NCBI RefSeq assembly: GCF_021568795.1
Contig: NZ_JAKGUE010000003.1
Coordinates: 62,001-126,000 of the forward strand
DNA: 64,000 bases
Reading direction: 5' to 3'
Source of the DNA: Dethiosulfovibrio faecalis
Lineage (GTDB): Bacteria; Synergistota; Synergistia; Synergistales; Dethiosulfovibrionaceae
The notes beneath the pieces are model-generated. The model was not told the DNA's origin, did not search any database, and was given only the letters and a program-made list of their open reading frames with translations. The translations under genes were made by a program, and so were the position numbers. Below, piece by piece: positions 535 through 15,750 of this stretch; positions within the stretch are counted from its first letter, which is position 1; each line of letters begins with the position of its first letter.

Positions 535-1824
535 TCACCGTTTTACAAAGGGGAAGACAGATCCTCCGTGAGGTATGACGTAGGCAGATCCTCCTTCGGG
601 ATGGAGCCTTGAGACCTCGGCCATGGCCTCCTCGACGGAGTTCACGGCGATTATCCCCGATCCCTCCAGGTCCGACCGTCTCAGTTCGGACACCAGCACG
701 ATATTCGCCTTCAGGGCCTGATCGGCCAGCAGATAGCCTACGTAGCGAGGTATGGAGAACCTCTCTCTGAGCACCTTTTCCCTCGCCACCTGGTCGGAAT
801 AACCGGTCAGTATCTCGAAACACTCGTCGCTGCCCGATCCCTCGTCGCACATGGCCAGGACCACCAGGGTACCCCCGTCTCTGACGGCCTCTATGGAGTT
901 GAACACCGTCTTGGACGACTGATACAGTACCATGTCCTTTGGATATCCTCCCGCCGATGCCACCACCACGTCGGCCTTTCGATCCACAGTCACGCCGTTC
1001 AGGTCGTTCACCAGCTCGGTGCCTTTCAGATGTGCGGACCTCCAGTGTCCCGACACGGCGGCGGCGATCCTTCCGTCTCCACCCATTACCACGTTGAAGA
1101 CGAAATCGGGATTCACCATGGAACAGGCCTCGTCCATGTCCAGGTGGAGGGGGTTGTCCTCCATGAAGGCGCAGCGGCATCTCATGTCCCTGCCGGTCTC
1201 GGGAGCCGATTTCAGCGCCAGGACATGATTGGCCTGTATAGCTTCGTATGAGGCCACCCCGGGAAGTATGGACTTTCTGCCCCCTCCCCATCCGGCCATG
1301 ACGTGATAGGTTGCGGCACCGGTCAGGATAAGCCTGTCGCACTCCGTTACCATGCGGTTGACCTCCACCGGGGTTCCTCTTGAGGTGGTCCCCAGCGACA
1401 CCAGCGAGTCTGCGTCCCTGCAATCGTGATCCACGATCTGAAAGCGATCCGCCAGGTCTCCCAGAAGCAGTCTGTGTTCCTCCCGGGTCTGGGATCTGTG
1501 GGTTCCGGTTGCGGAGATGAACTTTACGTCCTCCTCCTTAACCCCTCCCGCCAGTATCTCGTCCACCAGAAGAGGAAGGTAGACCGACATCCTCTGCCAT
1601 GCCCTTGTGACGTCGGAGACCACCACACAGACGGTCTCGCCCGGAGAGAGCAGGTCCCTCAGCCTGGGCGAGTCTATCGGGTTTTCAAGACCGTCCAGGA
1701 CGACTTCCTCCTCGGATACATCTCGAGGCGTCGGAGGTTCCAGCACCGATTCGAGTTTCAGATTTTCCGGAAGGCTCAGGGGAAGCTCCCCTTTTCCGTA
1801 GGACAGAGTGAACTCCAAGCTCAT
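535..1824 (-). CDS. larA: LarA-family nickel-dependent 2-hydroxyacid racemase
   Basis: A 429-residue protein, close to the 424 of Lactobacillus plantarum lactate racemase. The residues known to matter in LarA are all visible: His109 in GTHR, His174 and Lys184 in the H-V-M-A-G-W-G-G-G-R-K stretch, and His200. Lys184 is the expected attachment point of the nickel-pincer cofactor and His200 a nickel ligand. The family interconverts D- and L-2-hydroxyacids; characterised members act on lactate, malate, phenyllactate and others, so the substrate is not fixed by family. The ATG chosen overlaps the stop of the upstream dehydrogenase by 4 bp (ATGA). The longer open frame upstream is antisense-free read-back into the dehydrogenase and is not used. 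The larB/C/E cofactor genes are not in this window. Confidence 0.9.
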   Translation of the reverse strand: MSLEFTLSYGKGELPLSLPENLKLESVLEPPTPRDVSEEEVVLDGLENPIDSPRLRDLLSPGETVCVVVSDVTRAWQRMSVYLPLLVDEILAGGVKEEDVKFISATGTHRSQTREEHRLLLGDLADRFQIVDHDCRDADSLVSLGTTSRGTPVEVNRMVTECDRLILTGAATYHVMAGWGGGRKSILPGVASYEAIQANHVLALKSAPETGRDMRCRCAFMEDNPLHLDMDEACSMVNPDFVFNVVMGGDGRIAAAVSGHWRSAHLKGTELVNDLNGVTVDRKADVVVASAGGYPKDMVLYQSSKTVFNSIEAVRDGGTLVVLAMCDEGSGSDECFEILTGYSDQVAREKVLRERFSIPRYVGYLLADQALKANIVLVSELRRSDLEGSGIIAVNSVEEAMAEVSRLHPEGGSAYVIPHGGSVFPFVKR

Positions 1825-2909
1825 TTCAGTTTCTCCAGTTGAGGCAGGCCGAACTCGTCGGAGTACCGTTTGAGCATGTCCTCCGTGGCCAGATCCAGCT
1901 CTATTCCCTCTCGAACGGCCCTCTCTCTGGCCTCCCTCTCCTTCTCGCCGTGGACGAATATCCTGTCGTGACCGTCGGCCTTCTCGCTGCGCCGGACCGA
2001 CTCCAATATGGAGGATACGCTGCCTTTTATGGCCGACTCGTCTCCGAAGACGTCCAGCCTGGTGGCGGCGAAATAGTGGGTTATGCCGCTTCCGCTGCCC
2101 GGTTCCTGAAACGTCTCGGGGCTCCATCGTCCCAGAGATAGAGCGGAACATAGAAACTCGACCATCAGCCCGAGCCCGTACCCCTTATGGCCTCCCAGCT
2201 CCTCTCCCTCTCCTCCCAGAAAGAGGTGTCCCCCCAGAGAGGACTCGCTCTTGAAGAGTTCCTCTATGTGGGATGCGTCGTCCGTGACCCTGCCGGTCTC
2301 GTCGACCACCCATCCCAGAGGCATGGGCTTTTTCCTCCTGTCGTAGACCTCCACCTTGCCGTGAGCCACCACAGGTGTCGCCATGTCGAGGAGAAACATC
2401 TCCTCTCCCGATCCCGGGACGGCCACCGCTATTGGATTGGTCCCCAGCAGGCGCTCCTTGCCGAATGTCACTATGCAGCATTTTCTGGTGTTGGTCATGG
2501 CAACCGCCATACAGCCCCGTTTTGCCGCCCGTTCCGCCCAGAGACCGGCCATTCCGTAGTGGTTCGAGTCGCGGACCACGCAGGAACAGGTTCCTATCTC
2601 CAGCGCCTTGTCCACGCAGCGGTCCATGGAGAAAGCCGCCACGGAGGGGCCTATGCCGGATTTTCCGTCGACCACAAGGGAGACCGGCGTCTCGTGGACC
2701 ACCTGAGGCTCCCTGTCGGTGAAGGCGAATCCCCCCTCAAGGTTTTTCCTGTAAAAGGCCAGCCTGGCCACCCCATGGGACGGGACTGCCCTAGCGTCCG
2801 CCTCCACAAGCACCTCGGCGGTTATTCGAGCCTGAGATTCGGTATAACCCAGCCCCTTTTCAAGTATGTCCATCACGTGTCTAGTTAGTCCGTCGTACGA
2901 AACTCTCAC
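1821..2909 (-). CDS. Ldh2/malate-type NAD(P)-dependent 2-hydroxyacid dehydrogenase
   Basis: A 362-residue member of the Ldh2/YlbC/AllD/MdH family, which oxidises 2-hydroxyacids (lactate, malate, ureidoglycolate, sulfolactate) with NAD(P). Visible signatures are S-H-G at residues 44-46, the S-N-H-Y-G motif with the catalytic-type His117, G-T-N-P-I-A, L-D-M-A-T followed by G-K, and G-G-H-K-G-Y-G-L. It sits between the symporter (16 bp upstream) and the racemase (4-bp overlap). The racemase would supply the enantiomer that this dehydrogenase uses. The family alone does not tell the side chain of the substrate. The aromatic leader peptide of the operon points to aryl-lactates, as an inference. 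Confidence 0.88.
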   Translation of the reverse strand: MRVSYDGLTRHVMDILEKGLGYTESQARITAEVLVEADARAVPSHGVARLAFYRKNLEGGFAFTDREPQVVHETPVSLVVDGKSGIGPSVAAFSMDRCVDKALEIGTCSCVVRDSNHYGMAGLWAERAAKRGCMAVAMTNTRKCCIVTFGKERLLGTNPIAVAVPGSGEEMFLLDMATPVVAHGKVEVYDRRKKPMPLGWVVDETGRVTDDASHIEELFKSESSLGGHLFLGGEGEELGGHKGYGLGLMVEFLCSALSLGRWSPETFQEPGSGSGITHYFAATRLDVFGDESAIKGSVSSILESVRRSEKADGHDRIFVHGEKEREARERAVREGIELDLATEDMLKRYSDEFGLPQLEKLK

Positions 2910-2925: not shown

Positions 2926-4356
2926 CTATGCCCTGTCTTCTCCGATTATCCTTCCGGCGGGTCGTCTGTCTACCAGAGCTACCATCAGGAACACCGCTAT
3001 GCACACAGGCCACTCCAGGTATATCACGTGGGAGACCACGTGGGTAGCGGGAAAGAAGGTCCATCCGGCCCATACTATCAGAGAGGCCAGTATTGTCCAG
3101 AAGCCCGACCCCCTGCGGCACAGGGAGGGAACGAAGAGATCCGCCAGTATGAGAAGGGTGAAGGACGCGGTGACAGCCAGAGCGGAGGTAAGGGTCTTGA
3201 GGATTCCCACCACGGATAGGGCCAGGAAGAAGGTAAGGACGCTGACCACGACCACGCAGATCCGGGAGAGGAAGACCTCCCGTTCGGGATCGAGCGCCTT
3301 CTTCTGAAAGAAAAGAGGTTTCACCAGGTCCTCCAGTGTGAGGGTGGCGCTTCCCAAAAGCAGGCCTACCGCTGTGGAGATATCGGCGGCCCAGAGACCG
3401 GCCAGAAGCAGCCCTCCTATGGCGGGGCTTATTGATGTCACCAGGGCGGGCAGGGCCATGGCGGAGTTCTCAAGTCCGGGAAACTTGGCGGCTGCCATGA
3501 CGCCGAAGAGAGCGCAGAGAAAACCTACCGGAAGGATTATTATCCCTCCGAGGATGAAGCCGTTTCGGGCGGATCTGCCGTCCCTGGCGGCGAAGGCGAT
3601 CTGGTTTATGGCCTGCACCGAGAATGCCTGGGTTATCATGACCGCCATCCAGGCGCATACCATGGCGGTTCCCATGCCGGAGGTCCAGTCAAGCCAGACG
3701 TCCGAGGGAGGAAGCTCGGCCATTATGGACTCTAAACCTCCGAAGGTTCCGGATACGCTGACCAGAGCGGCGATTATCCCTCCGTATATGACCACCACGT
3801 TTATGACGTTGACCAGACCTCCGGCCAGATATCCGCCTATAAGGGTGACCCCGATGAATATGGCGGCGGTGGCCATCATCCCGGTCTGGAAGGTGAATAT
3901 GTCCGGAAGAAGAGCCGTGAGAACCGCTCCTCCCGCCACGTACTGAAGGGAGGTTATGACCATCTGGATGACCAGCTGGGCTACAGCTCCGAGAACCCTG
4001 GCTCCGGGACCGAACATACGTCCCATCATCTCAGGCACGGTACGGACGTTCATCTTGCGGAAGAAACCCGCCGCCACGAGGCCTACGACGATTCCCGCCA
4101 CACCCCAGGCGGCGTTGTACCAGCCGGCGGACAGGCCTTTGGTGTAGGCGTTCTGGGCAACTCCGACGGTGGAGGCCCCTCCTATGGCTAGACCGGCCAG
4201 CATGGCGGCCACCACGACGGGAGGCAGGTTGCGCCCGGCCAGGAGGTAGCCCATGGCCCCTTCGACATGACTCCGTCTCTGTATCTGAAGGGCCTTGAGA
4301 GACACCCCGAAGAGAAGCGCTATGTAAGCTATCAAGATAATAAGTTGAACGTTCAT
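2926..4356 (-). CDS. Sodium:solute symporter (SSS family)
   Basis: A 476-residue polytopic membrane protein with about 13 hydrophobic segments. It has the SSS-family N-terminal pattern (G-Y-L-L-A-G-R-N-L-P, then G-G-A-S-T-V-G) expected for Na+-coupled uptake. The open frame extends upstream, but two ATGs occur in its plausible start zone. The one at 4356 has an AAAGG Shine-Dalgarno about 8 nt upstream, whereas that motif abuts the ATG at 4365, so I choose 4356. It is the first gene of the operon with the dehydrogenase and racemase, and lies about 130 nt downstream of the attenuator terminator. It is the likely importer of the 2-hydroxyacid; an importer of aromatic amino acids is the alternative. 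Confidence 0.85.
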   Translation of the reverse strand: MNVQLIILIAYIALLFGVSLKALQIQRRSHVEGAMGYLLAGRNLPPVVVAAMLAGLAIGGASTVGVAQNAYTKGLSAGWYNAAWGVAGIVVGLVAAGFFRKMNVRTVPEMMGRMFGPGARVLGAVAQLVIQMVITSLQYVAGGAVLTALLPDIFTFQTGMMATAAIFIGVTLIGGYLAGGLVNVINVVVIYGGIIAALVSVSGTFGGLESIMAELPPSDVWLDWTSGMGTAMVCAWMAVMITQAFSVQAINQIAFAARDGRSARNGFILGGIIILPVGFLCALFGVMAAAKFPGLENSAMALPALVTSISPAIGGLLLAGLWAADISTAVGLLLGSATLTLEDLVKPLFFQKKALDPEREVFLSRICVVVVSVLTFFLALSVVGILKTLTSALAVTASFTLLILADLFVPSLCRRGSGFWTILASLIVWAGWTFFPATHVVSHVIYLEWPVCIAVFLMVALVDRRPAGRIIGEDRA

Positions 4357-4487
4357 TTTCGACATCCTTTCGCCGCTTTCAGGCTTCCCTCTAGGGTTCC
4401 ACCCGTCCTCTTCCACCAAACGCTTTTTTCTATGTCCCCTCTCCTCTCTGTCGCTTCGCAGTTGTGCTGAAATAAAACAGGAAGCAT

Positions 4488-4521
4488 AAAAAAAGGACCG
4501 ATCCCAGAATGGGACCGGTCC
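4488..4521 (-). terminator. Attenuator terminator in front of the symporter operon
   Basis: Read on the minus strand this is a 12-bp stem (arms at 4510-4521 and 4495-4506, one G-U pair) with a 3-nt loop, followed by seven U residues (4494-4488). It lies inside the leader transcript, before the first structural gene, which is the arrangement of an attenuator rather than an operon end. Confidence 0.88.
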
Positions 4522-4568
4522 CGGAGATTTCAACGACGTCTAGACGTCGGTCCTCCCCAGAGGTCCCA
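4510..4568 (-). promoter_or_regulatory. Antiterminator pairing elements of the aromatic attenuator
   Basis: The leader segment UGGGACC (4568-4562), just after the aromatic codons, is perfectly complementary to GGUCCCA (4516-4510) in the 5' arm of the terminator. Pairing of the two would prevent the terminator stem. A 16-nt perfect palindrome at 4534-4549, spanning the leader stop codon, can form a hairpin between them. A ribosome held at the aromatic codons would leave 4562-4568 free; a ribosome at the stop codon would probably mask it. The mechanism is inferred from sequence complementarity. Confidence 0.75.
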
Positions 4569-4629
4569 CGCATCTAAAGTAATAGCCGTACCAAAAAAGG
4601 CGATTGTTCGATACAGACGTCGAAATCAT
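4540..4629 (-). CDS. Aromatic-rich leader peptide of the attenuator
   Basis: A 29-codon open frame with a purine-rich ribosome site (GGAAAGGAA) before its ATG. Residues 12-18 read F-W-Y-G-Y-Y-F, so six of seven codons specify Phe, Trp or Tyr. Its stop codon lies 19 nt before the terminator stem. Short translated leaders with runs of the regulatory amino acid are the hallmark of ribosome-mediated attenuation (trp, his, pheA). Here all three aromatic amino acids are read. A longer in-frame ATG at 4803 lies upstream of the promoter and is rejected. The product itself probably has no function after translation. Confidence 0.85.
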   Translation of the reverse strand: MISTSVSNNRLFWYGYYFRCVGPLGRTDV

Positions 4630-4676
4630 GGTTTTTCCTTTCCGCGGCTCGCAGCCGCAAAAAACGGTTGAGACGA

Positions 4677-4706
4677 TATATACCACCTCTCGGGGGGTTT
4701 TGTCAA
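4677..4706 (-). promoter_or_regulatory. Sigma-70-type promoter of the attenuated operon
   Basis: On the minus strand a consensus -35 TTGACA (4706-4701) is followed after 18 nt by TATATA (4682-4677). Transcription would begin near 4669, giving a leader of about 180 nt up to the terminator. A small GC hairpin (4644-4658) lies just before the leader ribosome site. Confidence 0.8.
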
Positions 4707-4856: not shown

Positions 4857-5744
4857 ATGAAAAACGTAATAGAGGTATCGGGTCTCTGTCATCGCTACGG
4901 ATCCCGTTGGATATACAGAGGGCTCGATGTATCGATTTCCCCCGGCAAGGTCTACGGACTTCTTGGTAAAAACGGGGTCGGCAAGACCACCCTTATAAAG
5001 ATCCTCATGGGATTTCTCCGTCCTTCCTCGGGAAGATGTACCGTCTTCGGCGAGGACTCCCACGACCTGAAACCGGCCACCAGGGCCAGGATAGGGCTTC
5101 TTTTCGAGGGACATCTGGCCTACGATTTTATGACCATATCCCAGATAGAGAGATTTTACGCACCTCATTATCCTCTATGGGACAAATCGAGATACTACGA
5201 TCTGGTCGACCTGCTGGGGCTAAAGCCTAATCACAGAATAGGCGATATGTCCTGCGGCCAGAGGTCCCAGGTGGTCCTTGGTCTGATAATGGCCCAGCAA
5301 CCGGAACTGCTGATATTGGACGACTATTCCATGGGACTCGACGCCGGATATAGAAGGCTTTTTCTGGACTATATGTCCGAATATCTGAGAGAGACGGGAC
5401 GGACGGTGTTCCTCACGTCCCACGTGATACAGGACATGGAGGGTTTCGTGGACCAGGTGATCTTTCTCGAGAGAGGCGGAGCCGTCAGGTCCACCTCGAT
5501 AGAATCTTTCAAGGGTACCTTCCACTGTTATGAGCTTCCCAAAAACGAAGGATCTCGAGTACCCGAACCGAAGGGTCCGGTAAAGAACGTCGAGACCCAC
5601 GGCGACCGATGGGAGCTGTTCGGCTTCGCCGGTCCGAAGGAGATTGAGACGGAGCTCGACGCCCAGGGAGTGAACCCCTCCGGCCTGACTCCCCGAAATA
5701 TGACACTGGAAGACGCCTTCATAGGCTACACCGGGAGGTATTGA
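4857..5744 (+). CDS. ABC transporter ATP-binding protein (exporter type)
   Basis: A 295-residue nucleotide-binding subunit. Walker A is G-K-N-G-V-G-K-T-T at residues 37-45, Walker B L-L-I-L-D-D at 151-156, and the switch histidine is His189. Two features depart from the consensus. The signature reads M-S-C-G-Q instead of L-S-G-G-Q, and the residue after the Walker B aspartate, normally catalytic Glu, is Asp156. The last 80 residues form an extra domain as in many single-ATPase export systems. It is followed after one base by its permease, so it is likely an exporter or an energised membrane-protein complex of unknown cargo. An AAAGGAG site precedes the ATG. Confidence 0.88.
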   Translation: MKNVIEVSGLCHRYGSRWIYRGLDVSISPGKVYGLLGKNGVGKTTLIKILMGFLRPSSGRCTVFGEDSHDLKPATRARIGLLFEGHLAYDFMTISQIERFYAPHYPLWDKSRYYDLVDLLGLKPNHRIGDMSCGQRSQVVLGLIMAQQPELLILDDYSMGLDAGYRRLFLDYMSEYLRETGRTVFLTSHVIQDMEGFVDQVIFLERGGAVRSTSIESFKGTFHCYELPKNEGSRVPEPKGPVKNVETHGDRWELFGFAGPKEIETELDAQGVNPSGLTPRNMTLEDAFIGYTGRY

Positions 5745-8673: not shown

Positions 8674-9564
8674 CTATCCCTCTTTTCTGGTCAGGTGCTC
8701 CAGCATGGTCTTGGTCATGATCTCCACGTCGGGCTCCTTTCCACCGGTCCAGCGGCGGAAGGCCTCCGCGCCCTGCCAGATGGTCATCCAGTATCCCATC
8801 AGGGTCCTGGCACCTCTGGCCTCGGCTTCGCGGAGCATCTTTGTATCGTGAGGAACGTAGACGAGATCGCACACCATGTGACGGCTCTCCAGATAGGAGG
8901 TATCGAAGACCGTGGCGTCGGTGTTGGGTGCCATTCCGACGGACGTTCCGTTTATGACCAGCTCGTTTTCCTTGAGAAGGTTCGGTATGTCCCCCGCCTC
9001 GGTGGACTGCACCTTGCAAACTCCGGCCCGATAGGAGTTGAGGTCGCTGGCAAGCTTCTGGATTTTCTCGTATCCCGACGCCCTTCCCCAGAGGGTTATG
9101 GAGCTGATCCCGGCGGCGCAAAGGGCGAAGGCAACTCCTCTGGCGGCTCCACCGGCTCCGAAGAGAAGGCAGTGTTTGCCGGTGGGATCGTATCGCCCCT
9201 GCTCCTTAAGCCCATGGACGAATCCTATTCCATCCGTATTGGATCCGCATAGCTTGCCGTCCTTCCAGTAGACGGTGTTGACGGCGTTGCAGAGAGAGGC
9301 TATCTCGTCCAGCTCGTCCAGGTATTTTATTATCTCCTGCTTGAGGGGCATGGTGACGTTGAGTCCCTTGAAGCGCATGGCTGCCAGTGCCGGAACCACC
9401 TTGGGAAGTTCCTCCGCCGTCACCTCGTAGGGGGTGTACACCGCGTTCATCCCCAGGGATTTGAAGTTGGAGTTGTGCATGGCCGGTGACAGAGATTTTC
9501 TGACCGGACTGCCAAGAAGGCCGAAGAACTCCGTGTCGGCCCAGAAAGTCTTTTCCTTAAGCAT
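8674..9564 (-). CDS. aroE: Shikimate/quinate dehydrogenase (AroE family)
   Basis: A 296-residue AroE-family protein. Ser24 and Ser26 in S-L-S-P bind the substrate carboxylate in this family. Lys75 in N-V-T-M-P-L-K, Asn96 and Asp111 are the conserved catalytic and binding residues, and a glycine-rich G-A-G-G-A-A-R nucleotide loop lies near residue 140. I start at the ATG at 9564, preceded by GGAAGGA; the frame extends 27 codons further without a better site. AroE normally reduces dehydroshikimate in biosynthesis. Here it lies downstream of a TRAP transporter and next to a CoA-lyase, so a catabolic direction (shikimate or quinate oxidation) is likely. Confidence 0.88.
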   Translation of the reverse strand: MLKEKTFWADTEFFGLLGSPVRKSLSPAMHNSNFKSLGMNAVYTPYEVTAEELPKVVPALAAMRFKGLNVTMPLKQEIIKYLDELDEIASLCNAVNTVYWKDGKLCGSNTDGIGFVHGLKEQGRYDPTGKHCLLFGAGGAARGVAFALCAAGISSITLWGRASGYEKIQKLASDLNSYRAGVCKVQSTEAGDIPNLLKENELVINGTSVGMAPNTDATVFDTSYLESRHMVCDLVYVPHDTKMLREAEARGARTLMGYWMTIWQGAEAFRRWTGGKEPDVEIMTKTMLEHLTRKEG

Positions 9565-9616
9565 GATGATCGATCCTTCCCTTCGAAAGAGCTTTTCGGA
9601 TATTCCGTTCAAAGAG

Positions 9617-12669: not shown

Positions 12670-14091
12670 CTACTGCGGTTTCTTTTTAGAGGGATCGAAG
12701 AACTCCCCGAAGAGTATCGCCTCGTCGGGCTGGTCCTTCACTATGGGACGGGCCACCCAGGTGCTCTGCATATAGTGTTTCAGTGAGATGTTCTCCGACA
12801 CCATGTTACCGCCCCATACGCCGCATCCCATGCTGGATGTCATGGGCATTCCGTTCTCGGCGCTGCCGGCGTTGGCCTTGGACTGGGGCTGACGGACCAT
12901 TATGCGGGTGACGGGAGCCCTCAGTGCAAGACGGTCGATATGGTCGTCGTCGTGGCTGTAGATCCCGCAGGAGTGGCCTCTGCCTCCGACCTTGTAGATC
13001 TCGTCCATCATCTTCAGGGCGTTCTCGAACTCGCCTTCGTAACGATGCAGTGTCAGCAGGGTGGTAAGCTTCTCCCCGGAGAACTTGTACTCCTTGCCGA
13101 TCCCGTCGCCGACGACCATTATGAACTTGCGGTCCTCCGGGATCTCGAAACCGGCGGCCTTGGCCAGCTTCTGAGGAGCCACGGCGACGGTCGCGACTAT
13201 GCGGTGCCCCTCCTCGTCCCACATGGCCTTCTTCAGCATCTCCCTCTGATCGTCGGTGGCCAGATAGCCGCCCTCGTTCTTCAGGGCCTCAACCATGGCG
13301 TCGTATATCCCGCCGTAGATAACCAGGTTTCCGTCGGCGGAACATCCGGAGCCGAAATCGGATGTCTTGCTGATCCTGGTGTTTCTGGCTGCGATCTCGA
13401 CGTCGGTGGTCTCGTCGAAGATCATGGTGGCGTTTCCGGCGCCGGAACAGTAGGCGGGCTTGCCCGAACTGTGGGCCGCCTTGGTCATGGCGGGGCCTCC
13501 CGTGGCCATTATCAGGTCCCCCATGGTCATGATCTTGTTCACCATGGCCATGTTGGGGGACTCGACGCACTGGAGGAAGTCCTCCGGTTCGCCTATGGCC
13601 TTGAGGGCCTCTCTCATAAGACGAACGACCTCGAAGGTGGTCTTCTTGGTCCTGGGGTGGGGCGAGAATATGACCACGTCCCTGGCCTTCAGGGCGTATA
13701 TGGCGGTGACTATGGGGGTGAGCTCCGGGTTCGTCATGGGGATGAGGGAAACTATCAGCCCCGCCGGTTTGGCGTAGCGGGCCAGCCCCTTCTCGGGATT
13801 GAACTCCACCATTCCGACGCTCTTCTGTCTCAGTGCGTCCCTTAGAACTCCCAGGATCTTGTGTCTCTTGCCGTAACGTCCGTTCCAGTCTCCCGCTCCG
13901 CTCTCCTCGACTCCCATCTTGCCGAGTCTGTCGAAGTTCTCCGGATTTCCCGCAGCCCAGGCGACGGCGCGGCACATGCGGTCGACCCTCTCCTGATCGT
14001 AGTTCTCTATGATTCCCTGAACCCGGCGGGCCTTCTCTACAAGTTTCTCCAGCACCTCGAGCTGTTCCGGAGTTATCTCTTTACTAGCCAT
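12670..14091 (-). CDS. CoA-acylating-type aldehyde dehydrogenase
   Basis: A 473-residue aldehyde dehydrogenase. The catalytic cysteine is Cys250 in G-S-G-C-S-A-D-G, and the nucleotide-binding part carries S-L-I-P-M-T-N-P near residues 115-122. The N-P-E-L-T-P segment and the lack of the usual glutamate base resemble CoA-acylating aldehyde dehydrogenases, including the acetaldehyde and sulfoacetaldehyde enzymes. It would oxidise an aldehyde, probably made by the TPP enzyme of the operon, to an acyl-CoA. The substrate cannot be read from the sequence. Confidence 0.82.
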   Translation of the reverse strand: MASKEITPEQLEVLEKLVEKARRVQGIIENYDQERVDRMCRAVAWAAGNPENFDRLGKMGVEESGAGDWNGRYGKRHKILGVLRDALRQKSVGMVEFNPEKGLARYAKPAGLIVSLIPMTNPELTPIVTAIYALKARDVVIFSPHPRTKKTTFEVVRLMREALKAIGEPEDFLQCVESPNMAMVNKIMTMGDLIMATGGPAMTKAAHSSGKPAYCSGAGNATMIFDETTDVEIAARNTRISKTSDFGSGCSADGNLVIYGGIYDAMVEALKNEGGYLATDDQREMLKKAMWDEEGHRIVATVAVAPQKLAKAAGFEIPEDRKFIMVVGDGIGKEYKFSGEKLTTLLTLHRYEGEFENALKMMDEIYKVGGRGHSCGIYSHDDDHIDRLALRAPVTRIMVRQPQSKANAGSAENGMPMTSSMGCGVWGGNMVSENISLKHYMQSTWVARPIVKDQPDEAILFGEFFDPSKKKPQ

Positions 14092-14125
14092 AACAAATCT
14101 CTCCTTGCGATACTGATTTTTTAGC

Positions 14126-14953
14126 CTACAGAATTCCGTTTTCGACCATGTAATCCTTGGCCGTGGACAGACAGCGCTTGGCGTGTTCCATAGATCCCCA
14201 GCTTCCCTCTCTCTTCAGATGGGGAAGCTCTATGGAGAGGACCACGTCGTCCGGAAGACGGCGGACTACGCCGGCTATGTCGATGGCACCTTCGCCCACG
14301 TAGTAGCGTTCGTCCCTTCCGGTGTGTATCAGGCTTTCCTTGTCGTCCCAGTCGGGGATCTCCGCCGGGCCGTCGCAGATATGGGCCATGTGGAAGAGCT
14401 CCTTAGGACAGTCGTCCAGCTCCGCCGGATCCACCCTGGACCTGTACAGGTGAAGGGTGTCTACCATGATTCCAGCGTTGTCCCTCTTTACCGTGTCGAG
14501 GACCTCTCTGGTCTCCTTCAGGGTGCGGATCGACGCCCAGGTGACGAACTCCAAATTCACCGTGATGCCGTATTGTTTGGCCAGATCGCACAGAGTGGCG
14601 AACTGATCCAGATAGAAGTCTTTTTTGTCGGTCCATATGCTGCTTATGACGTTCTTGACTCCCAGCTCCGCCGCCGCCTCGAAGGGGCCCTCGTAGTTCC
14701 GGACGTCGACTCCGTCGGCGATCTTGGCCAGCTCGATATCGTTTATTGCCACCCCGGTCTCGTCCATGGCCCTGCGGGTCAGGTCGAACATCTCCCTGTT
14801 CCTGTAGATATCGTAGTCGTTCTCGCCCTTGACCCCCATGGTTATGGATCTTATCCCCACGCAGTCGTAGCCCAGGGTGTGGGCGTTGTAGATCATCTCG
14901 GGTGGAGCCCATCCGAGAACGGTAAGCTGAGCCAGAGAATACCTGTGTGCCAT
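14126..14953 (-). CDS. TIM-barrel sugar isomerase/epimerase-like (xylose-isomerase-like) protein
   Basis: A 275-residue xylose-isomerase-like TIM barrel. Conserved acidic and histidine positions of the metal site are visible in L-E-F, V-D-T-L-H and I-E-L. This superfamily includes sugar-phosphate isomerases, inosose dehydratases and 3-dehydroshikimate dehydratases (AsbF/QuiC type). Next to AroD and AroE the last activity is a reasonable guess, but not shown. A GAGGAGG site precedes the ATG at 14953; the longer frame reads back through aroD. Confidence 0.78.
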   Translation of the reverse strand: MAHRYSLAQLTVLGWAPPEMIYNAHTLGYDCVGIRSITMGVKGENDYDIYRNREMFDLTRRAMDETGVAINDIELAKIADGVDVRNYEGPFEAAAELGVKNVISSIWTDKKDFYLDQFATLCDLAKQYGITVNLEFVTWASIRTLKETREVLDTVKRDNAGIMVDTLHLYRSRVDPAELDDCPKELFHMAHICDGPAEIPDWDDKESLIHTGRDERYYVGEGAIDIAGVVRRLPDDVVLSIELPHLKREGSWGSMEHAKRCLSTAKDYMVENGIL

Positions 14954-14973
14954 CTTCTTTTTTGCCTCCTCGA

Positions 14974-15750
14974 CTAACGATAAAGTAGATCGAAGGCCCC
15001 GTGCATCCGCTCCACCGGGATCTGTCCCGGGGCGGACTCGGCGCTTCCGACCGCGAAGGTGAGGTCCGATCCGTAAAGCCCTCCGGCCAGACGGCTGACC
15101 TGTCCCAGAGCTCCCATGGACATGGTTATCAGGGGAACGTCGGGGAAGTCCCTGCGGACCGCCAGGGTGGCCTCGAACACCTTCAGAACGTCCTCCTCCG
15201 ATCTCGGCATCAGAGCCACCTTGGCGACGTCGGCGCCGAAACGGATCTGGGTGGCCAACTGAGAGTAGATGAAGGAGAGAGAGGGGGTCCGGTCGAAATC
15301 GTGATAGGAGACTATAAGCCCTATTCCCGCATTCTCCGCCAGAGCCTTGACCTCCGAGAGCTTCTCGTAGCCGTAGGAAAGTTCCTTGTCCACCAGCTCG
15401 ACAAGCTTCTCCGAGATCGCCCCTATGTATATGCCGTCCTTGGCCGACTCGGACACCTCCTTGATACCGCCCTCCCAATGTCCGCGACAGGTGAGGATGA
15501 TGGGAAGATCTCCCACGGCGGAGCGTACCCTGCGAAGGAGGTCCATCGACGAGTCAAGATCCTCGACCACGTCCCAGGCATCTATTCGCAGCTCTATGAT
15601 GTCCGGATTTATGGAGGAGAGGTTCTCCACCTCCGCCATGACGTCCTCCCCGGTCGAGCCGACCAGGGGGACGCATACCAGGGGAACCTCTCCGCCCAAC
15701 AGGGCGTTTCGGACCTTCAAGGGCTTTCCGGGAAGAGGACGAACCATCAT
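14974..15750 (-). CDS. aroD: Type I 3-dehydroquinate dehydratase
   Basis: A 258-residue type I dehydroquinase. Every active-site residue of the E. coli enzyme is found at a constant offset of seven: Glu53 and Arg55 in E-L-R, Arg89, His150 in S-Y-H-D-F and the Schiff-base Lys177 in A-K-V-A-L-M-P. It interconverts 3-dehydroquinate and 3-dehydroshikimate. Its ATG overlaps the stop of the TPP enzyme gene by 4 bp. Placement in an operon with a TRAP transporter argues for quinate/shikimate catabolism rather than, or in addition to, aromatic biosynthesis. Confidence 0.92.
   Translation of the reverse strand: MMVRPLPGKPLKVRNALLGGEVPLVCVPLVGSTGEDVMAEVENLSSINPDIIELRIDAWDVVEDLDSSMDLLRRVRSAVGDLPIILTCRGHWEGGIKEVSESAKDGIYIGAISEKLVELVDKELSYGYEKLSEVKALAENAGIGLIVSYHDFDRTPSLSFIYSQLATQIRFGADVAKVALMPRSEEDVLKVFEATLAVRRDFPDVPLITMSMGALGQVSRLAGGLYGSDLTFAVGSAESAPGQIPVERMHGAFDLLYR

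Follow-up and report, generated by a model that had tools for sequence, protein, structure and literature searches.

We identified a leader region in Dethiosulfovibrio faecalis that is best explained as a classical ribosome-mediated transcription attenuator with any-aromatic input, placed before an operon that probably serves aryl-2-hydroxy-acid salvage (probability of the whole explanation about 0.87). The leader lies on the minus strand of the window, the whole 64,000-nt stretch of DNA analysed, between a divergent ABC-transporter gene (4857-5744, plus strand) and a three-gene operon for a symporter, an Ldh_2-family dehydrogenase (Ldh2) and a LarA homologue (Table 1). It is almost certainly a functional attenuator, and an input spanning Phe, Tyr and Trp as a class is very probable.

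Table 1. Features of the leader region and of the operon behind it.
Feature	Position	Strand	Details	Evidence
Promoter	4677..4706	minus	TTGACA 4706-4701, 18-nt spacer, TATATA 4682-4677	sequence
Ribosome-binding site AAGGA	4636..4640	minus	leader ATG 6 nt downstream	sequence
Leader ORF, 29 codons	4540..4629	minus	MISTSVSNNRLFWYGYYFRCVGPLGRTDV; ATG at 4629, stop TAG 4542-4540	
Regulatory codons 12-18	4576..4596	minus	TTT TGG TAC GGC TAT TAC TTT = F-W-Y-G-Y-Y-F	
Antiterminator	4509..4569	minus	GUGGGACCUCUGGGGAG ... CUCC ... GGUCCCAU	predicted fold, about -31.5 kcal/mol
Intrinsic terminator	4488..4522	minus	12-13 bp stem (4522-4494), then T7	-23.9 kcal/mol
SSS-family sodium:solute symporter	2926..4356	minus	likely ATG 4356, alternative ATG 4365	PF00474, 1.8e-26
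Ldh_2-family (malate/L-lactate/sulfolactate type) 2-hydroxyacid dehydrogenase	1821..2909	minus		PF02615, 1.2e-100
LarA homologue	535..1839	minus	nearest the LarAH10 hydrophobic 2-hydroxyacid (phenyllactate) racemase family	PF09861, PF21113

The ribosome site, the 29-codon frame and the F-W-Y-G-Y-Y-F run described in the initial annotation were all found, as was its 12-bp terminator with seven U residues. The consensus promoter that it had named stood in part: the -35 hexamer is TTGACA, but the -10 TATATA is only fair, and a strict promoter scan passed over it. Relatives in the genus carry TTGACA with TATAAA or TATATT at the equivalent position, and AAGG or GGAG-type ribosome sites stand upstream of the relatives' leaders. 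The 7-nt segment proposed as the antiterminator (4562-4568) is indeed complementary to the terminator 5' arm, but the fold extends the pairing to about 14-16 pairs across 4569-4509, with the palindrome CGACGTCTAGACGTCG enclosed. Six aromatic codons out of seven have a chance probability of about 1.1e-6 per seven-codon stretch at the local codon frequency. A scan of 1.98 Mb from the sibling genome G108 ranked the symporter leader first among all candidates in aromatic density; weaker ones (e.g. at 829242, 950504 and 1757411) had no dense run or sensible target and were discarded as chance. An Rfam scan of the window gave no match, and the T-box hallmarks (RF00230: stem I specifier, UGGN) were not found in it. 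What the region does contain is the full set of elements of a ribosome-mediated attenuator: promoter, ribosome site, codon cluster, terminator, an antiterminator that excludes it by computed energies, and conservation in orthologous loci.

We then calculated the antiterminator from the RNA present before the terminator 3' arm exists, and stepped along the leader a ribosome whose front was set 16 nt away from the first base in the P site. Folding with alternative pairings, which the initial annotation had suggested as a check, gave a mutually exclusive antiterminator and terminator by computed energies. In the energy model, an A site at codon 12, 13, 14, 16 or 17 leaves the whole antiterminator in place (-30 to -31.5 kcal/mol); it is reduced to -22.1 at codon 18 and is gone from codon 19 onward. 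In the window's leader, W, Y and F codons alike precede the switch point of the stall model. The same was seen in 24 of 25 leaders, where stalls at nearly every aromatic codon spare the antiterminator, which is lost near the last one; the calculation was ambiguous for the leader of G020. We judged the pairing on per-sequence folds and left the pair counts of the genus alignment unused, since its terminator arms are one base misaligned. The results showed that RNA 3' of the aromatic run pairs with the terminator 5' arm in all 25 leaders, with an antiterminator energy distinct from that of shuffles (p<=0.02) in about 20 of them. The pairing letters vary by clade, being GUGGGACC:GGUCCCAU in the genus, GCGGGGA:UCCUCGC in g22 and GCGAGG:CCUCGC in the leaders from Thermodesulfobacteriota/Myxococcota. 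Across clades, the predicted antiterminator structure is preserved while its sequence is not.

These folds are compatible with the following mechanism. A shortage of charged Phe-, Trp- or Tyr-tRNA would stall the ribosome within codons 12-18, leaving the RNA from 4569 free to pair with the terminator 5' arm, and with this antiterminator formed the polymerase would continue into the symporter-Ldh2-LarA operon. With all three tRNAs charged, the ribosome would reach the stop codon and mask the antiterminator, allowing the terminator to form. An untranslated leader would likewise end in termination: in the energy model its 5' part pairs with the RNA in between (ATG-proximal GAUUUCGACGUC with GACGUCGUUGAAAUC), and the terminator hairpin folds.

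Symporter orthologues were present in 40 of 188 Synergistota genomes. We called a leader where an ORF with a ribosome site had at least 5 aromatic residues in 8 and was followed by a terminator. The results showed a leader before the orthologous symporter in 21 of the 40 Synergistota regions, compared with 0 of 600 dinucleotide shuffles; 17 of the 40 loci had no leader at whatever threshold was tried. The leader is kept in all seven genomes of the genus (G000, G108-G113), with Y16 changed to F in G109. Among the leaders the aromatic run reads FWYGYYF, FWYGFYF, FYFYFWF, FRYYWYW, FYFYY, FYFYYYF, YFYFYYWF, YFYFYFWF or FFYFYYW, and relatives also carry YFYFYGF and FFYFFGF. This conservation in other Synergistota ruled out the lack of it, which had been set beforehand as a refutation. 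Together with the stall-model energies, the 21 loci uphold the original proposal of a translation-coupled attenuator with mixed aromatic input before a symporter-dehydrogenase-racemase operon. Residue totals across the leaders are F 72, Y 70 and W 16, about 40% of leaders lack W, and F and Y exchange at equivalent positions between related leaders. Because exchanges among F, Y and W require non-synonymous changes, selection appears to act on the aromatic class of the codon, with no single residue fixed.

Outside Synergistota, leaders were found before the symporter in three Thermodesulfobacteriota/Myxococcota genomes (L084, L086, L090), namely Candidatus Adiutrix, Deltaproteobacterium Smac51 and a Desulfovibrio. 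In the first two, the whole symporter-Ldh2-LarA operon follows. Candidatus Adiutrix (L084) has two complete aromatic attenuators in tandem, with NYYYFWF at -384 and IFFYYSWF at -199 from the symporter. In a tree of 55 symporters, the three non-Synergistota members group inside a mostly Synergistota clade; this nested position suggests horizontal transfer of the transporter, and the simplest reading of the sequences is that the leader may have moved along with it.

Homologous symporters in Clostridia are preceded by a different regulator. We found a T-box before the symporter in seven Clostridia loci, with a Phe or Tyr specifier in six and a Leu specifier in one. We assigned the specifiers from alignments, reading them in the specifier loop as GAA-N-codon, or GAA-codon if N is missing. 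The specifier was UAC in L113, L123 and L148 and UUC in L126 and L135, while L106 has tandem T-boxes, UUC (Phe) at 3852-4103 followed by UAC (Tyr) at 4413-4664. In L135, the UUC T-box, the symporter and a LarAH10 racemase above the family cut-off form one operon. A search at E<=0.01 found no T-box in L099, L102, L104, L105 or L108. That two unrelated RNA sensors, the leader peptide in one lineage and the T-box in the other, are coupled to the same transporter family for the same amino acids is strong independent evidence of its function. The Leu specifier (CUC) belongs to L112:2468-2704, where the T-box precedes a symporter homologue that has a divergent LarAH10-like racemase as its neighbour; this may be a hydroxyisocaproate counterpart of the aromatic system.

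Aromatic leaders also precede biosynthetic genes. The aro operon of the genus (DAHP synthase) has its own mixed aromatic leader, SYSYSFTDGQWRYYASG in G000 and G108 and FYSFSGSQWRYYVSGYG in G111 and G113, and mixed aromatic leaders stand before DAHP synthase in many Synergistota families, e.g. YFNYYFSYGQWRYYYASG in L193 and AGFYYFYCFT in L197. The genus also has Trp leaders, NWWW before trpE (G108 1070864) and WWWW before trpB. On these sequence comparisons, the symporter leader is part of a putative phylum-wide aromatic regulon. Both leader and symporter are retained in six near-complete genomes where chorismate synthase gave no match (G109, G020, G032, G034, G096 and G098). G109 also lacks trpE, prephenate dehydratase and a long DAHP synthase, its sole PF00793 match being a 293-aa frame that we take to be of the KdsA kind. 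We found aroC in 11 of 23 leader genomes versus 13 of 16 leaderless ones (Fisher p 0.049), a comparison that ignores relatedness and that we do not rely on. Two observations were made beside these results: many DAHP synthase leaders in L174-L203 and L154-L158 have a recurrent GQWRYYxASG motif, and the leader before trpB at 1544415 of G108 contig C1 (L282), which ends in CWWWWT and is followed by a terminator, is distinct from the trpE leader.

The operon genes were assigned by profile searches. The symporter scored 93.4 bits against PF00474 (gathering cut-off 22.8) and belongs to that family. The LarA homologue scored 460 bits against NF052525 (LarAH10), the best of all LarA models but below the cut-off of 540; it is thus related to LarAH10 and not a member by the curated cut-off. 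LarAH10-type racemases act on phenyllactate, 4-hydroxyphenyllactate and other hydrophobic 2-hydroxy acids, and D-gluconate was considered by the authors as perhaps the native substrate of one member (PMC7583248, PMC11770544). An operon switched on by scarcity, as the mechanism predicts, should supply aromatic amino acids rather than degrade them. Catabolism, first suggested as an option beside uptake, was therefore rejected as unlikely: the predicted scarcity induction, the Phe/Tyr T-boxes of Clostridia and the similar leader of the aro operon all point to supply. We propose that the operon imports the aromatic 2-hydroxy acids phenyllactate, hydroxyphenyllactate and indolelactate, and that the racemase and dehydrogenase would convert both aryl-lactate enantiomers to aryl-pyruvates, which are one transamination from Phe, Tyr and Trp. 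This would be a salvage route running alongside the shikimate pathway, a role that we favour slightly on the gene content. If true, aryl-lactates from the environment would be salvaged by an orphan sodium symporter acting together with a racemase and a dehydrogenase.

The cargo could also be the aromatic amino acids themselves, or aryl-pyruvates, with the attenuator working as described and with Ldh2 and LarA being accessory or acting on another 2-hydroxy acid. We regard this as a serious possibility of somewhat less than even odds. The symporter is the constant partner of the regulators: in g12, g21, g22 and g24 no partner gene accompanies it after the aromatic leader, the same holds downstream of the T-box in most Clostridia loci, and G034, which has leader and symporter, lacks an Ldh2 orthologue. 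These solitary symporters are what suggest amino acids as cargo. Against them stand the genes that travel with it, since genera from several families, as well as L084 and L086, have Ldh2 downstream of the symporter, and LarA homologues adjoin it in L084, L086, L099, L102, L112 and L135, loci that are far apart on the tree. Among the solved structures searched, none was near enough to settle the cargo. On the wider picture, the odds are about even that one leader class treats Phe, Tyr and Trp as one common signal for the shikimate pathway and aryl-lactate salvage in Synergistota and a few Thermodesulfobacteriota/Myxococcota, with Clostridia using Phe/Tyr T-boxes instead.

Other alternatives concern what the leader senses, if anything. 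The pheA, trp and Corynebacterium glutamicum aroR leaders are described as responding mainly to one amino acid, and the frequent lack of W would fit a leader that senses a single aromatic amino acid with the others as neutral neighbours. This is improbable given the swapping of F and Y at equivalent positions, the placement of W, Y and F codons all before the switch point, and the T-boxes of the same symporter family, which read Phe or Tyr and in L106 both. A TnaC-like peptide, arresting the ribosome with a free aromatic amino acid and so inducing a catabolic operon, would suit an operon with a degradative role, and the residues that follow the run are indeed conserved among members of the genus. 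Between clades, however, those residues are wholly different while the RNA pairing is retained; the run itself varies among F, Y and W; an intrinsic terminator with a stall-dependent antiterminator suits starvation sensing; and the aro operon has the same leader type. We consider such an arrest very unlikely. Short ORFs and terminators are common, but the empty shuffles, the conservation over several families and across phyla, and the position-specific antiterminators leave a negligible chance that the leader is an accidental ORF before the ordinary terminator of an upstream transcript.

The any-aromatic attenuator resembles the trp, pheA and pheST attenuators of Enterobacteria in its leader ORF, clustered codons, exclusive antiterminator and terminator, and coupling to translation. 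Those systems respond to Trp or Phe and regulate biosynthetic genes or the charging of tRNA, whereas here a mixed Phe/Tyr/Trp leader precedes a symporter-2-hydroxyacid operon. A single ilv, leu or thr leader likewise senses several end products, each acting as an alternative signal for stalling, but these are branched-chain amino acids or threonine, and the operons are biosynthetic. T-box riboswitches (RF00230) also sense uncharged tRNA, but bind it directly without translation. The uORFC-13-1 motif before aroF in Acholeplasma has a predicted leader ORF, a Phe codon and a terminator before DAHP synthase (PMC8632094); it differs in clade, in reading phenylalanine only and in serving biosynthesis. 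The nearest precedent for mixed codons is the aroR leader of C. glutamicum, with Phe-Tyr-Phe before aroF, reported to answer Phe limitation (Neshat 2014, via PMC11802643). As summarised there, aroR shares mixed aromatic codons and a link to aromatic supply with the symporter leader, but has three codons, no Trp and a biosynthetic DAHP synthase target; on the same summary, the Synergistota aro-operon leaders resemble it more closely than the symporter leader does. Our search of the open-access literature found no described leader reading all three aromatic amino acids, no attenuator on a transporter-2-hydroxyacid operon and no aromatic attenuation in Synergistota. The novelty first claimed for a mixed aromatic leader thus holds for the transport target in the literature searched but, going by the aroR summary, not for biosynthesis. 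The mechanism is known (trp/pheA-type attenuation), and the any-aromatic input and transporter target are new in that literature. They would extend attenuation to class-wide aromatic input and to an uptake or salvage operon, and would assign a role open to experiment both to an orphan family of SSS symporters and to the LarA racemase associated with it, a protein that the LarA papers discuss without settling its physiological role.

Further leaders followed by terminators were seen on contig C1 of G108. A Met/Cys-rich one, MRLSDSNMMMCDMMCCLCGAPEGEYGG, at about 1794706 (L294) precedes a MetQ-MetN-permease operon (12826-15417) and is possibly a mixed sulfur-amino-acid attenuator on a transporter. 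At 1555018 (L282:10799-12049), the leader MNFKFFVFGTTMMCTTKFGDPSRGVGA (Phe, Met, Thr) stands before a 416-aa protein with no Pfam or NCBIfam match. FVIIIVVVI, at 1467829 (L278), precedes ilvC and an acetolactate-synthase-like gene. In the window itself, a shikimate-dehydrogenase-family gene (8674-9573) that belongs to no aro operon has an HMG-CoA-lyase-like gene and TRAP transporter genes as neighbours.
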